Assembly: GCA_934899185.1 (NCBI GenBank)
Contig: CAKXYI010000001.1
Span: 1-64,000 of the forward strand
Direction: 5' to 3'
Length of the DNA: 64,000 bases
Source: an uncultured Lachnospiraceae bacterium
GTDB taxonomy: Bacteria > Bacillota > Clostridia > Lachnospirales > Lachnospiraceae
Shown one piece after another: positions 18,218 through 63,301 of this stretch (positions within the stretch are counted from its first letter, which is position 1; every line of letters begins with the position of its first letter). The position numbers and the translations under genes were made by a program. The notes beneath the pieces are model-generated. The model made no database searches and had not been told where the DNA came from. It worked only from the letters and a program-made list of their open reading frames with translations.

Positions 18218-18230
18218 GAAAACATGACAA

Positions 18231-18265
18231 AAGGGACGCTCCTTGTGGCAAAAGGAACGTCCCTT
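18231..18265. repeat. Dispersed palindromic hairpin element, copy 1
   Basis: Arms AAGGGACGCTCCTT and AAGGAACGTCCCTT around GTGGCAA, one mismatch. It lies between the convergent GH3 and chemoreceptor genes, where a hairpin can also end both transcripts. The same element recurs at six other sites in the window. Confidence 0.85.
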
Positions 18266-18270
18266 AAATT

Positions 18271-19761
18271 TTATAAATATTTATCCAACTGGTGGGATAC
18301 GTCAAGCACACCGCTCAGACGGCTCTTGGCATTTTCTACATTTTCCATATTGGCATTGGAAAGTTCCGCTGCCTGGTTGGAAGATGCGGTCACTTCCTCG
18401 GTCGTTGCTGATAAGTTGGTAATGTTATCTACGATCTGGTTGTTGGCATCGGAAAGTTTACTCAGACGATCATCGATATTTTCGATATGGGTGATCAGTT
18501 CTGTCACGTTCTCATTCATCGCCTCAAAACTCTCAGATGCTTCTGTGATCATGACATCCTGTGCATCCGTTGCACTGACAGACTGGGAAACCGCATTGGC
18601 TGCCCTAGTCGCATTCTCTGTCAGGTCATCGGAGATCTTGCTGATCTCTTCTGTCTCCTGCTTGGTACGCTCTGCCAACTGACGAATCTCATCCGCAACA
18701 ACAGCAAAGCCTCTTCCTGCTTCTCCCGCACGCGCACTCTCGATAGATGCATTCAACGCTAATAAGTTGGTCTGTCCGGAAATGGCAAGGATTGTATCTG
18801 CGATATTACGCACTTCCTCTGTCTTTTTCTGCAATGCTTCCATTGCCTCTGCCACATCTTTGTTTGTATGAGAAATGAGCTGTGACTGTTCTTTCAAACG
18901 GCTCATAACTTCCATAGACTGCTTGTTAATCTCACTAGACTGTTTTGCGATATCTACCATTGTTTCAGAATTCTGTAATGTCTGTTCAATGGACTCCTGA
19001 ATATTTGCCGTCATGGTTGTCTGTGTCTGAATGTTTTCTGCTGTAGATAATGTACTCTCAGAGATATTCTTCATGGCACCATTTACAACCTCAGAAGAAC
19101 CATTCAAATCATTTACGATATCCATAGCACTCTCTGTTCCCTTACGTACTTCTGCTGCAACGCCAATCACATCATCCAACATCGTCTTCATCTTGGCATT
19201 TCTAGCCTGTACTTCGCCAAGTGTATCCTTGTTAAACTGCTCAGCGATATTCGTCATAGTGACAAGTAAGAATAGCAGTACCAACACAATAACCACTACA
19301 AACAGCTGGTTAATTGCCGCGTCACCTTCCAGATTCTGATGCTGTGTAATCTTACCGATTGTCACAAGCACTTCCATCAAAAGGTATGCCAATCCACTAA
19401 AGAACGAGAACTTTCGATCAAAGAAAATCACACATCCCACCAATGGGAACATACCAAATACCTGGATAAATCCCTGGCTAAATGCAAATCCTGTCACATA
19501 ACATGTCAAAAGAAGCAATGGTACAGCAACGATTTTGAGTTTTGCTGATGCCGGATTCTTTTTATATACAATAAACAGAATCACAAATGATACAATTTCA
19601 ATTGCGGATACCATACAGGTCAGTCCCATAGAACGAACCCCCATAGCACAACATGTCCACATAATCGCAAGCAACACAGCATAAAACACTGCGTATCCTA
19701 TAATCAGAAAGCGATTTGCCCTTTTTAACTGTTCTTCCTGATCTGCATATCTAAATTCCAT
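18271..19761 (-). CDS. Methyl-accepting chemotaxis protein with six-helix membrane domain
   Basis: 496 residues. About 20-180 hold six closely packed hydrophobic segments with almost no extracellular loop and no HAMP domain. The signalling coiled coil follows, with the tip sequence [20 protein letters not shown]. Receptors of this build may sense membrane state or small internal ligands; the signal here is unknown. It is a second orphan receptor in the window, and its promoter looks like sigma-A, not SigD. Confidence 0.92.
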
Positions 19762-20704: not shown

Positions 20705-20720
20705 GCTCTCTCCTTGCCAT

Positions 20721-20755
20721 AAGGGACGTTCCTTTCGCCACGAGGAGTGTCCCTT
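20721..20755. repeat. Dispersed palindromic hairpin element, copy 2
   Basis: AAGGGACGTTCCT and AGGAGTGTCCCTT around TTCGCCACG, two mismatches. It lies in the leader of the SpoU methyltransferase gene, 16 bases from its start codon. Confidence 0.75.
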
Positions 20756-28746: not shown

Positions 28747-28750
28747 CACT

Positions 28751-28782
28751 AGGGACGCTCCTTTTGCCACAAGGAGCGTCCC
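28751..28782. repeat. Dispersed palindromic hairpin element, copy 3
   Basis: GGGACGCTCCTT and AAGGAGCGTCCC pair perfectly around TTGCCAC. It starts five bases after the phosphorylase stop codon. Confidence 0.85.
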
Positions 28783-28798
28783 CTTTGGATTGCGGAAA

Positions 28799-28868
28799 CA
28801 GGCGCAGATAAGGACAAACGGGCAGGCACCGGGATAGGTGCCTGCCCGTTTGTCCTTATCTGTGCCTG
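28799..28868. repeat. 32-bp near-perfect inverted repeat
   Basis: Two 32-base arms (28799-28830 and 28837-28868) pair with only one G-U pair around the loop GGGATA. The stem is GC-rich and has no T tract. It lies between the convergent phosphorylase and thiamine pyrophosphokinase genes, 16 bases after the element copy at 28751. Confidence 0.85.
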
Positions 28869-28877
28869 TCTTCGTGC

Positions 28878-29534: not shown

Positions 29535-29563
29535 GCTGTAACCTCTATCTATCCAAGCCATCC

Positions 29564-29594
29564 GGGACACTCCATAAGCCAAAAGGAACGTCCC
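29564..29594. repeat. Dispersed palindromic hairpin element, decayed copy 4
   Basis: GGGACACTCC and GGAACGTCCC around ATAAGCCAAAA; the arms carry two mismatches. It sits between rpe and thiN. Confidence 0.65.
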
Positions 29595-55047: not shown

Positions 55048-56106
55048 TTAGTATCCATCTACTTGCCATGATAGCGGCATGAAAAATTCGTTGAACTTGG
55101 TAACGGCATACTGATCCGTCATACCGGCAATATAATCGCAGACCACACGGTCTTTTTCCTCATGTCCTTCCACGATCATGCGCGTATATTTCATTGGCAA
55201 CTGGTCTATATGATCCATATAATATTCAAACAACTGGCTCAGCATACGCTGGGCTTTGACTTCTTCTGCCTTTGCGACCGGATTCTGATATACATTGGAA
55301 AACATGAACTTGCGCAGATCATACATTGCCTGTTCCATTTCCGCAGACATGGCGATCGGCTCCAAGTCGTTGCGGCATTCCTTATCCATCACATCGATAT
55401 TGTGCAGACTGCTCATGATGACATCATGGATCAGATTGTCCAGACGCTCTCTGGTCGTATGTCCTAAAGTATTGCGCAGTTCCTTTGGAATATCATCCTC
55501 GGTCAGGATCAAGCCGCGGATGGCGTCGTCAATATCATGGTTGATATAGGCAATCTTATCAGATAAACGGACGATCTTGCCCTCCGGTGTTGCCGGGATG
55601 GTACTGGTCTGGTGATTGCGGATGCCATCGCGCACTTCCCATGTGAGGTTTAGTCCCTCGCCATCTTTTTCCAGATGCTCTACAATACGCACACTCTGTT
55701 CACTATGTACAAAACCGCCCTGACACAATTCGTTGAGCGTCCGCTCTCCCGCGTGTCCAAATGGTGTGTGTCCCAGATCGTGTCCCAGTGCGATTGCCTC
55801 CACCAGATCTTCGTTCAGGCGGAGTGCCTTGCCGATGGTCCTGGCATTCTGTGATACCTCAAGCGTATGCGACATACGCGTGCGGTAATGGTCGCCCTTT
55901 GGTGTCAGAAAAACCTGGGTCTTATTTTTCAAACGACGGAAAGACTTGCAATGTAAGATACGGTCGCGGTCTCTCTGGAAGACCGGACGGATGTCACACT
56001 GTGGTTCCTCCCGATCACGCCCTCTTGAATTTTCACTCAAAGTTGCATAAGGACTGAGTGTTTCACGCTCCATATCCTCAATGGTTTCTCTTATGGTCAT
56101 AGTCAT
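55048..56106 (-). CDS. dgt: dGTPase-like HD triphosphohydrolase
   Basis: 352 residues of the deoxyguanosinetriphosphate triphosphohydrolase-like family, which cleaves dNTPs to nucleoside and triphosphate. HD residues are in RMSHTLEVSQ and GHDLGHTPFGHAGE, with a third Asp in LSDKIAYINHDIDDA. Start is Met1 or, with better spacing from AAAGGA, Met3. The site and start lie in the arm of a 9-bp inverted repeat. First gene of the dnaG-rpoD run. Confidence 0.92.
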   Translation of the reverse strand: MTMTIRETIEDMERETLSPYATLSENSRGRDREEPQCDIRPVFQRDRDRILHCKSFRRLKNKTQVFLTPKGDHYRTRMSHTLEVSQNARTIGKALRLNEDLVEAIALGHDLGHTPFGHAGERTLNELCQGGFVHSEQSVRIVEHLEKDGEGLNLTWEVRDGIRNHQTSTIPATPEGKIVRLSDKIAYINHDIDDAIRGLILTEDDIPKELRNTLGHTTRERLDNLIHDVIMSSLHNIDVMDKECRNDLEPIAMSAEMEQAMYDLRKFMFSNVYQNPVAKAEEVKAQRMLSQLFEYYMDHIDQLPMKYTRMIVEGHEEKDRVVCDYIAGMTDQYAVTKFNEFFMPLSWQVDGY

Positions 56107-56157
56107 GTCCTTTCAAAAAAACACTCTCTTAATTCTTTCTTACGCATCAAAGGACAT
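56105..56157 (-). promoter_or_regulatory. Inverted repeat over the dgt ribosome binding site
   Basis: ATGTCCTTT (56105-56113) and AAAGGACAT (56149-56157) are a perfect 9-bp repeat 35 bases apart. In the mRNA one arm holds the Shine-Dalgarno and first ATG of dgt, so pairing would hide them. Confidence 0.5.
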
Positions 56158-56173
56158 TTTCCTTTATTTTTTT

Positions 56174-56206
56174 GAGGGACGTTCCTTTTGCCACATGGAG
56201 TGCCCC
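56174..56206. repeat. Dispersed palindromic hairpin element, copy 6
   Basis: GAGGGACGTTCC and GGAGTGCCCC around TTTTGCCACAT, decayed in the right arm. It stands 28 bases from the left end of the large inverted-repeat element. Confidence 0.7.
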
Positions 56207-56233
56207 TTTTGGCTGGGGCTGGGAACGATGGGA

Positions 56234-56697
56234 TGACCGGGCAGATACCGCGGACAGGGGAGGGCAAGAAACTGTCGCAGAACAGGGAGTCTCTGGTCGA
56301 GAAACTTTTTCTTTTCTTGATAAAAACTGTCTTTGCAAAGTTCGACAACCGTCTTGGATGATGTTCGTCTCTGGCAGATATGAATGCAAAACGCATTAGA
56401 GATGCTTTGGACTTGTTTGCAAGCAGGCAACTCGGGTACAGGGATGTACCCGAGAGGCGCAACCGCACACGGATGTTCGTTTGCGCCGGTTGCCACTGGC
56501 TGTTGCAAGAAAACGAACAAGTCCTTAGCATCTCTTATAAGTGACGCCCTGAATATCTGTCAGAGGCGGACACATCCTGACGGCAGTCGAAACTGTGCAA
56601 GAGACACTTTATTCAAAGAAAAAGATTTCTCGAAGAGACTCACCTAACCTGCTCCGAAGTTTCTTGCCCTCCCCTGTCTGCGGTATCTGCCCGGTCA
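56234..56697. repeat. Large inverted-repeat element (about 460 bases)
   Basis: The outer 40 bases (56234-56273) pair with 56658-56697 with a single G-U. Further inside the arms are clearly the same sequence inverted but diverged: GAGTCTC, TCGAGAAA, CTTTTTCTTT, GCAGATAT/ACAGATAT, GAGATGCT and GGACTTGTT match with small gaps. The centre carries two hairpins side by side, CTCGGGTAC/GTACCCGAG (56431-56454) and GGCGCAA/TTTGCGCC with an inner CCG/CGG (56456-56487). No frame through it resembles a protein. It fills the gap between dgt and the HD gene and has no transposase. Confidence 0.85.
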
Positions 56698-56730
56698 CTC
56701 TTTCCTACATCAGCCCAAGCCTAAGGAACA

Positions 56731-57273
56731 CTATAGCAGGGCGCTGATCTTGTGAAACATAAGGAGAAAGTCCTCCTCCACATCTTCAAACGGCTTGGTA
56801 CTAAATGCCGGTCTGGTCAAAATCTCGTGCTCCGGAATATCCAGTTCTTCATTCATAAAACATTTAAACTCATGAAATAGCATAGCATCATCAATCGCCT
56901 TGATCTGCGCCATTTCTTCCGCTGACGGACACTGTCCCAAAAACTTTTCAAAGATCATATTCTGCAACTTTTCTTCTGCTGCCAGATACTCCGGCATATG
57001 CTGCTTGAGCGGTCTGGTAATATCCGCCATGTAGGCTTCACTTGCATCGTGCAGCAGACAGCCCAGAACCACGCGGGCGCTATGGTCACGTTCCAACGCC
57101 TCATAGGCACATCCGACCGAATGCTGTGCCACCGAATAAAATTGTCCAAAATGTCCGTTTGCACGCGTCATCAAAGAAAGTGCATGGGCGATATCATTGA
57201 TATCAATATCCTCCATCTTGGGCTCCATAATGGTAAAATGTTTTTTCGTGTACGTTGTAATATAATCCTGCAT
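56731..57273 (-). CDS. HD-domain phosphohydrolase
   Basis: 180 residues, a YfbR/5'-nucleotidase-like HD protein. The metal residues are in SVAQHSVGC and LLHDASEAYMADITRPLK, with a distal Asp in AIDDAML. Similar single-domain proteins act on deoxynucleoside monophosphates; the substrate here is not proven. It lies between maf and the large repeat, followed directly by the repeat. Confidence 0.88.
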   Translation of the reverse strand: MQDYITTYTKKHFTIMEPKMEDIDINDIAHALSLMTRANGHFGQFYSVAQHSVGCAYEALERDHSARVVLGCLLHDASEAYMADITRPLKQHMPEYLAAEEKLQNMIFEKFLGQCPSAEEMAQIKAIDDAMLFHEFKCFMNEELDIPEHEILTRPAFSTKPFEDVEEDFLLMFHKISALL

Positions 57274-63168: not shown

Positions 63169-63270
63169 TTGTGATAATATCCAGATCGGGTATCCATGCA
63201 AGAAAGTATGACATAGATATAGAATGAAAGCAAGAAAAGAATTCTTAAATTTTTATAAACAAGCCAAAAA

Positions 63271-63301
63271 GGGACGCTCCTTGTGGCAAAAGGAACGTCC
63301 C
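63271..63301. repeat. Dispersed palindromic hairpin element, copy 7
   Basis: GGGACGCTCCTT and AAGGAACGTCCC around GTGGCAA, almost identical to copy 1. It begins eight bases after the stop of the uxaC remnant on the minus strand side. Confidence 0.85.

Follow-up and report, generated by a model that had tools for sequence, protein, structure and literature searches.

What is the large near-palindrome that separates two genes on a contig of an uncultured Lachnospiraceae bacterium? The stretch of DNA analysed here (64,000 nucleotides, hereafter the window) carries the element between dgt and an HD-domain gene. The original prediction, made from the letters of the window, described 460 non-coding bases with two apical hairpins and considered a structured RNA, a transposon-like element without a transposase and a barrier between the genes. 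In the following, we describe the architecture of this copy, its copies in related genomes, the pairing of its arms and its possible link to the regulator CsrA.

Architecture of the giant hairpin and its tip

The near-palindrome is real. RNA folding of 56174-56720 yields -309 kcal/mol, compared to -171 +/- 7.5 kcal/mol for 100 shuffled sequences (18.5 SD lower, with 0/100 shuffles as good). Furthermore, the local inverted-repeat score at the element is 149, whereas 300 equally long random stretches of the window reach 24 at most. The locus comprises the following features:

55048..56106, minus strand: dgt, downstream of the element, with HD and HD_assoc domains (open reading frame and Pfam; gene name from the original prediction)
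56172..56206, no strand assigned: small dispersed hairpin of a 35-nt family, 69% identical to the family reference, overlapping the left end of the element
56199..56732, plus strand (that of the tip RNA): whole giant hairpin, 534 bp (inverted repeat 56199-56273 / 56658-56732 and fold)
56199..56221, plus strand: left terminal inverted-repeat-like end (inverted repeat, arm pairing)
56234..56273, plus strand: left arm of the GC-rich, near-perfect outer stem, GC 0.625 (arm pairing)
56274..56417, plus strand: left inner arm, diverged, overlapping RF01731 (arm pairing)
56384..56549, plus strand: TwoAYGGAY RNA core, RF01731 (90.4 bits, gathering threshold 43, E 2.4e-14 for the window)
56431..56454, plus strand: tip hairpin 1, loop AGGGAT (inverted repeat)
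56436..56447, plus strand: site in hairpin 1 that fits the CsrA SELEX consensus exactly (sole match in the 64-kb window, 0.02 expected)
56456..56487, plus strand: tip hairpin 2, ACGGAT, with the CsrA consensus at two mismatches at 56465-56476 (inverted repeat)
56516..56657, plus strand: right inner arm, diverged, overlapping RF01731 (arm pairing)
56658..56697, plus strand: right arm of the GC-rich, near-perfect outer stem, 39/40 Watson-Crick pairs and one G-U (arm pairing)
56711..56732, minus strand: right terminal inverted-repeat-like end, adjoining the stop codon of the HD gene (inverted repeat, arm pairing)
56731..57273, minus strand: HD-domain gene, upstream of the element, with its stop at 56731 (open reading frame and Pfam)

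From the outside inwards, the element consists of modestly complementary ends, a poorly matched stretch, the 40-nt stem, diverged arms and the two-hairpin tip. The predicted 40-base arms with a single G-U pair are present, with the G-U at 56252, but they are not the outermost part: outside of them, 67-80% of positions are paired per 15-nt bin as far as 56199/56732, and the arms are 76% complementary over the 75 nt to the ends. The full element therefore measures 534 bp and not 460. The near-perfect outer stem around a diverged middle was recognised correctly, as the inner arms (56274-56417 with 56516-56657) are 53-93% paired per full 15-nt bin, and both apical hairpins are found at the tip. 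Nine open reading frames of at least 40 amino acids overlap this copy, the HD gene aside; the four that were scanned had no Pfam match at E <= 0.01.

The small hairpin beside the element does belong to a dispersed family, with six copies in the window (18229-18263, 20719-20753, 28748-28782, 29560-29594, 56172-56206 and 63267-63301). Near one small hairpin, the window also contains a 38-bp inverted repeat that is 92% complementary with a 6-nt loop (28793-28830 / 28837-28874), and elsewhere a 113-nt direct repeat of 75% identity (2346-2458 and 18671-18783).

No known RNA class had been thought to explain the element, and here the prediction has to be revised. The alignment of RF01731 at the tip spans model positions 1-168, its full length, and there is little doubt that the core is a TwoAYGGAY RNA. 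Like the model, the core carries two GGA hairpins on a stem; unlike it, the window copy continues into a 534-bp palindrome of which the model covers only the tip. The loops also differ in their fit to the AYGGAY form: ACGGAT of hairpin 2 agrees, whereas AGGGAT of hairpin 1 has a G at the Y position.

RF01731 belongs to Rfam clan CL00106, which has CsrC among its members. The CsrA consensus is given as RUACARGGAUGU, with ACA and GGA 100% conserved, in an excerpt of PMC7652899. As in CsrB-like RNAs, the tip presents GGA loop sites that fit this consensus, one exactly and one with two mismatches, and such loops are found in the copies as well. The match in hairpin 2 is weak on its own, because 24 matches of this kind occur in the window compared to 15.6 expected. 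Elsewhere in the window, just past a tRNA gene, 231-264 resembles the 3' end of CsrC below threshold (26.9 bits, gathering threshold 61), which is probably only a terminator hairpin. A lead to the 'drum' RNA yielded nothing useful.

Copies in related genomes and signs of mobility

Relatives were collected by a protein scan with dgt, which resulted in 80 loci, nearly all from Lachnospiraceae or close kin, and the genomes of the best 30 were used. RF01731 is found in 17 of these 30 genomes, with 38 matches in genome G001, 39 in G005 and 49 in G007 (up to 64 candidates scored per genome). In larger samples, it is present in 46 of 298 genomes of G007's family, the Lachnospiraceae (44 over the cut-off), and in 37 of 391 genomes of its class (28 over the cut-off); copy counts per genome in these two samples are lower bounds, because 9 and 7 candidates per genome were scored, respectively. 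For comparison, we fetched 90 of the 156 copies of five genomes, mostly the best-scoring ones (23/38 from G001, 22/39 from G005, 22/49 from G007, 13/14 from G009 and 10/16 from G030).

The copies in G009 are near-identical among the 13 of 14 that were fetched. They are bounded by GGATTCGGGTGTCAAAAGG at one end and by its inverse at the other, and the span of about 306 bp is too short to hold a transposase; one open reading frame within a G009 copy has no Pfam match. Among the 19 copies of G009 and G005 with both ends, eight are flanked by exact 7-bp direct repeats (7/10 in G009, 1/9 in G005), compared to a mean of 1.07 and a maximum of 5 with shuffled partners. In G007, the ends are GTTACCATTCACAG, paired about 610 bp apart; they are unrelated to the ends in G009, and the core is common to both. 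At four places in G009, both ends lie only 41-125 bp apart and form small hairpins that lack the RNA core. In the window, the six 35-nt hairpins may be the local equivalent of these end-only derivatives.

None of nine scanned open reading frames beside G009 ends encodes a transposase; they belong to other Pfam families or to none. At the window copy, no target duplication was found within 4 nt of the ends, either as a direct repeat of at least 7 bp with one mismatch or as an exact repeat of 5-6 bp. An empty site was likewise not found, as the HD gene and dgt occur together at none of the loci listed in the comparison with the 80 dgt loci. The earlier suggestion of a transposon-like element that lacks a transposase is supported in the relatives by the dispersal of the copies, their terminal inverted repeats and the target duplications. 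We thus consider it highly probable that the RF01731 element family is mobile-like, and the TwoAYGGAY core is very likely carried by a non-autonomous, MITE-like palindromic element with dispersed copies in the relatives.

The resemblance to MITEs lies in the short length, the inverted ends, the target duplications and the end-only derivatives in relatives. The element differs from them by its conserved structured RNA core, by ends that vary with the host lineage, by the outer stems that are private to each copy in G007 (see below) and in that no parent transposase was identified beside the G009 ends. IS200/IS605-type hairpin elements and Y1/HUH transposition are not known to produce target duplications, whereas the G009 copies have 7-bp duplications. 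REP/BIME and RAYT elements are dispersed intergenic palindromes; the TwoAYGGAY element is much longer than these and has target duplications in G009.

Some related arrangements were also observed. Elements of 192-194 bp at loci L217 (G008) and L218 (G010) terminate in GTTACTATTCACAG, similar to the ends found in G007, and have different internal hairpins; no TwoAYGGAY core was recognised in them. At L135, L141 and L143 (all G001), G003:C78, G004:C68 and G030:C24, two oppositely oriented TwoAYGGAY copies lie a few hundred bases apart or less. At L135 and L143, the arms are common to both paired copies, which results in nested palindromes.

Pairing of the arms and conservation of the loops

The arms in G007 were compared across 20 of the 22 copies, the other two not having both ends. 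Up to 156 nt from the core, the identity of the left arm between copies is mostly 0.77-0.97, with one 12-nt bin at 0.49. Beyond 156 nt, it drops to 0.35-0.45 across 36 GC-rich nucleotides, while the copy's own arms pair there at 0.91-0.96. Copies in G007 have 476 bp in common and an outer GC-rich stem of about 40 bp that is private to each copy and 92% self-complementary. In pairwise comparisons of the 40-nt stems, the identity between a copy's own left and right arm is 0.918, compared to 0.459 between copies and 0.36 when shuffled. Among the 32 copy pairs that are at least 92% alike elsewhere, the stem identity is 60% on average and 85% at maximum; hence, the stem retains some kinship but changes fast. 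When the whole locus L190 was searched against G007 (40 of 81 candidates scored), the other listed copies matched within about 857-1339 of the query, except for two that reached 819 or 826 on the left; the inverted self-match covers 798-1392.

Simple capture of target sequence does not explain the arms in G007, since the terminal repeats lie outside the private stems. An origin by nesting within a family of solo GC-rich hairpins was also rejected for G007, where no solo hairpin was recognised at 12 single-end places. In G001, the copies show no relationship to one another over the arm stretches 22-85 nt outside the core (14.1 compared to 13.4 shuffled), but these stretches are self-complementary (28.4); they may be derived from the target. 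Private stems are not universal, as the arms in G005 and G009 are common among copies. By its relative place, the 40-nt outer stem of the window copy may be the counterpart of the private stem in G007, as far as a single copy allows such a comparison.

The near-perfect outer stem had been taken as a sign of selection. If arm pairing were selected in the plus-strand RNA, an excess of G-U over A-C mismatches would be expected. Instead, the two are about equal in G005 (52 G-U and 60 A-C), G007 (89/89), G009 (20/24), G030 (20/14) and the window copy (4/6), so that RNA-level selection on the long arms is not supported. The private stems of the 20 G007 copies are likewise strand-symmetric (16 G-U, 20 A-C), and it is this very stem that is most variable between copies. 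Only the arms in G001 are asymmetric (53/17; outer arms alone 21/11, p 0.11), which we count as weak because most of the excess sits at shared positions directly flanking the core. The strand-symmetric mismatches point to copying between the two arms in the DNA as the best explanation for the long arms, a process known from quasi-palindrome correction.

The tip differs from the arms, as a loop sequence is conserved there on one strand. GGA is found in the loop of hairpin 1 in 87 of 90 copies (G001 22/23, G005 22/22, G007 22/22, G009 13/13, G030 8/10), all of which were detected with a model that itself favours GGA-type loops. It is less constant in hairpin 2 (20/23, 17/22, 8/22, 13/13 and 7/10 in the same genomes). 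The outcome named beforehand as refuting the original prediction, a lack of homologues or of compensatory changes in them, did not occur: homologues are numerous, and paired positions vary on both sides. In 20 distinct rows of hairpin 1 from G001, seven of eight pairs vary on both sides, CAnGGAnG is invariant, and covariation is 0.889 compared to 0.274 when shuffled. These rows derive from 21 of the 23 copies, selected for a 6-nt loop and Watson-Crick pairing at no fewer than 5/6 inner positions (one duplicate was left out, as were two copies whose loops have 5 nt), so that the apparent pairing of 100% arises partly by construction. This covariation could also be produced by copying between arms in the DNA.

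CsrA association and the possible role of the element

In the two larger samples, RF01731 and CsrA tend to occur together. Among the 298 Lachnospiraceae genomes, CsrA (PF02599, E <= 0.001) was detected in 44 of 46 positives compared to 107 of 252 negatives (p 1.2e-12; two of the 107 are under the Pfam cut-off). The class sample gives a similar picture, as CsrA occurs in 26 of 31 further positives compared to 11 of 49 negatives (p 6.4e-8); here, six of the 37 positives were already in the family sample, and the negatives comprise 20 that were named negative and 29 presumed so by their absence from the list of positives. As a control, Cas1 has no link with RF01731 (20/46 positives, 121/252 negatives, p 0.63). 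Flagellin occurs in 45 of the 46 positives, and CsrA and flagellin are found together in 149 genomes, nearly the same set. As the two are inseparable in this sample, the association with CsrA possibly reflects motility or kinship. The link is absent among the first 30, nearer genomes (13/17 positives, 9/13 negatives). Neither CsrA nor FliW was found in G004, G017, G027 (7 copies) and G030 (16 copies), which for G030 may be due to missing assembly. Several genomes have multiple CsrA-like matches (five in G005, four in G018, three in G025 and six in G320), some of them in longer reading frames.

In comparison to decoy RNAs of the CsrB/CsrC/RsmZ type, the element shares GGA in hairpin loops, with an exact consensus site at the window tip, and the association of its presence with CsrA in both larger samples. 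It differs in that two sites are predicted per RNA and would be spread over many copies, and no promoter was found. A further difference is the presence of FliW in 21 of the 30 relatives' genomes; FliW is an antagonist of CsrA in B. subtilis according to an excerpt of PMC7652899. The TwoAYGGAY RNA and its CsrA link are already published predictions: a passage of PMC4333381 proposed it as a CsrA-binding sRNA of Clostridia, a CsrA decoy. The passage on TwoAYGGAY in PMC11701678 concerns only a revised consensus structure.

We propose that a non-autonomous, MITE-like element carries the TwoAYGGAY RNA as cargo. The tip would be transcribed from the plus strand, by an unrecognised promoter or read-through, and its RNA would present two GGA sites 29 nt apart that could titrate a CsrA dimer. 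All copies jointly might then act as a distributed CsrB-like decoy. The long arms would serve as transposon ends whose complementarity is maintained by copying from arm to arm in the DNA (via a cruciform or template switching), and the outer GC-rich segment would be their fast-changing, copy-private part. For the whole statement of a MITE-like mobile hairpin whose TwoAYGGAY cargo acts as a two-site CsrA decoy, we see about an even chance. Titration of CsrA by the tip RNA, taken by itself, is the most likely role of the element, although we put it at somewhat less than even. More tentative, and rather unlikely as a whole, is a mobile CsrA sponge that spreads through motile Clostridia with two sites per copy and tens of copies. 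In each copy, copying between the arms would rebuild or diversify the outer stem, leaving it with a self-complementary stem of its own.

The main rival is a purely selfish palindromic MITE, in which the tip hairpins and GGA loops would serve DNA recognition (by a cruciform, a transposase or a host factor) and have no RNA function. We regard it as a serious candidate, albeit an unlikely one. The strand-symmetric mismatches in four genomes and the private stems in G007 agree with selfish DNA, as do the end-only derivatives without core; furthermore, no sigma-70-like promoter was found in 55900-57000. The placement of the copies points the same way: the open reading frames flanking 84 of the 90 copies (simple calling) are arranged as -- in 28 cases, ++ in 22, +- in 20 and -+ in 14, and with such mixed orientation, transcription from a neighbour does not yield the CsrA-sense strand for many copies. 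However, the loop is conserved on one strand, it fits the CsrA consensus exactly at the window copy, and the core is common to genomes with unrelated ends, all of which argue against DNA recognition only.

Other readings concern the locus itself. As a cis-acting 3' hairpin between the HD gene and dgt, the element would be a terminator, an RNase block or a transcription barrier. Its right end indeed adjoins the HD stop codon at 56731, and none of the copies in G007 (0/22), G009 (0/11) and G030 (0/7) lie between divergent genes; yet 10 of 21 copies in G005 and 4 of 23 in G001 do, and the sole terminator-like site in 55900-57000 is located inside the HD gene (56763-56779, minus strand) and not at the element, which makes this role improbable. 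A cis-regulatory leader is suggested by the Rfam type label 'Cis-reg'. We consider it very improbable, because both window neighbours are on the minus strand, which puts the tip RNA in antisense to both and excludes that it is the leader of either, because of the mixed orientation in 84 copies, and because TwoAYGGAY figures in a table of PMC2864571 as a probable RNA whose role is probably not cis-regulatory. The window sequence alone would allow a single event of inversion-duplication confined to this locus, without a wider family, but the same core with palindromic arms recurs many times in other genomes; given this dispersed family, we have ruled out such an event for practical purposes.

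So far, TwoAYGGAY has been a name and a guess about CsrA, without a known function. In the open-access literature, we found no report of its mobile, high-copy form with private stems and, among the titles and abstract openings listed, no relevant link of CsrA or Lachnospiraceae to miniature inverted-repeat elements. Seen as the conserved end of a MITE-like family with many copies, TwoAYGGAY would become mobile DNA with an RNA cargo, and this MITE-like nature offers a reason for its mixed placement. The CsrA link is now testable in culturable relatives, e.g. Pseudobutyrivibrio. Should the decoy prove functional, a transposable element would be titrating a global regulator. Furthermore, the private stems would document in nature how long palindromes change in a bacterial chromosome.
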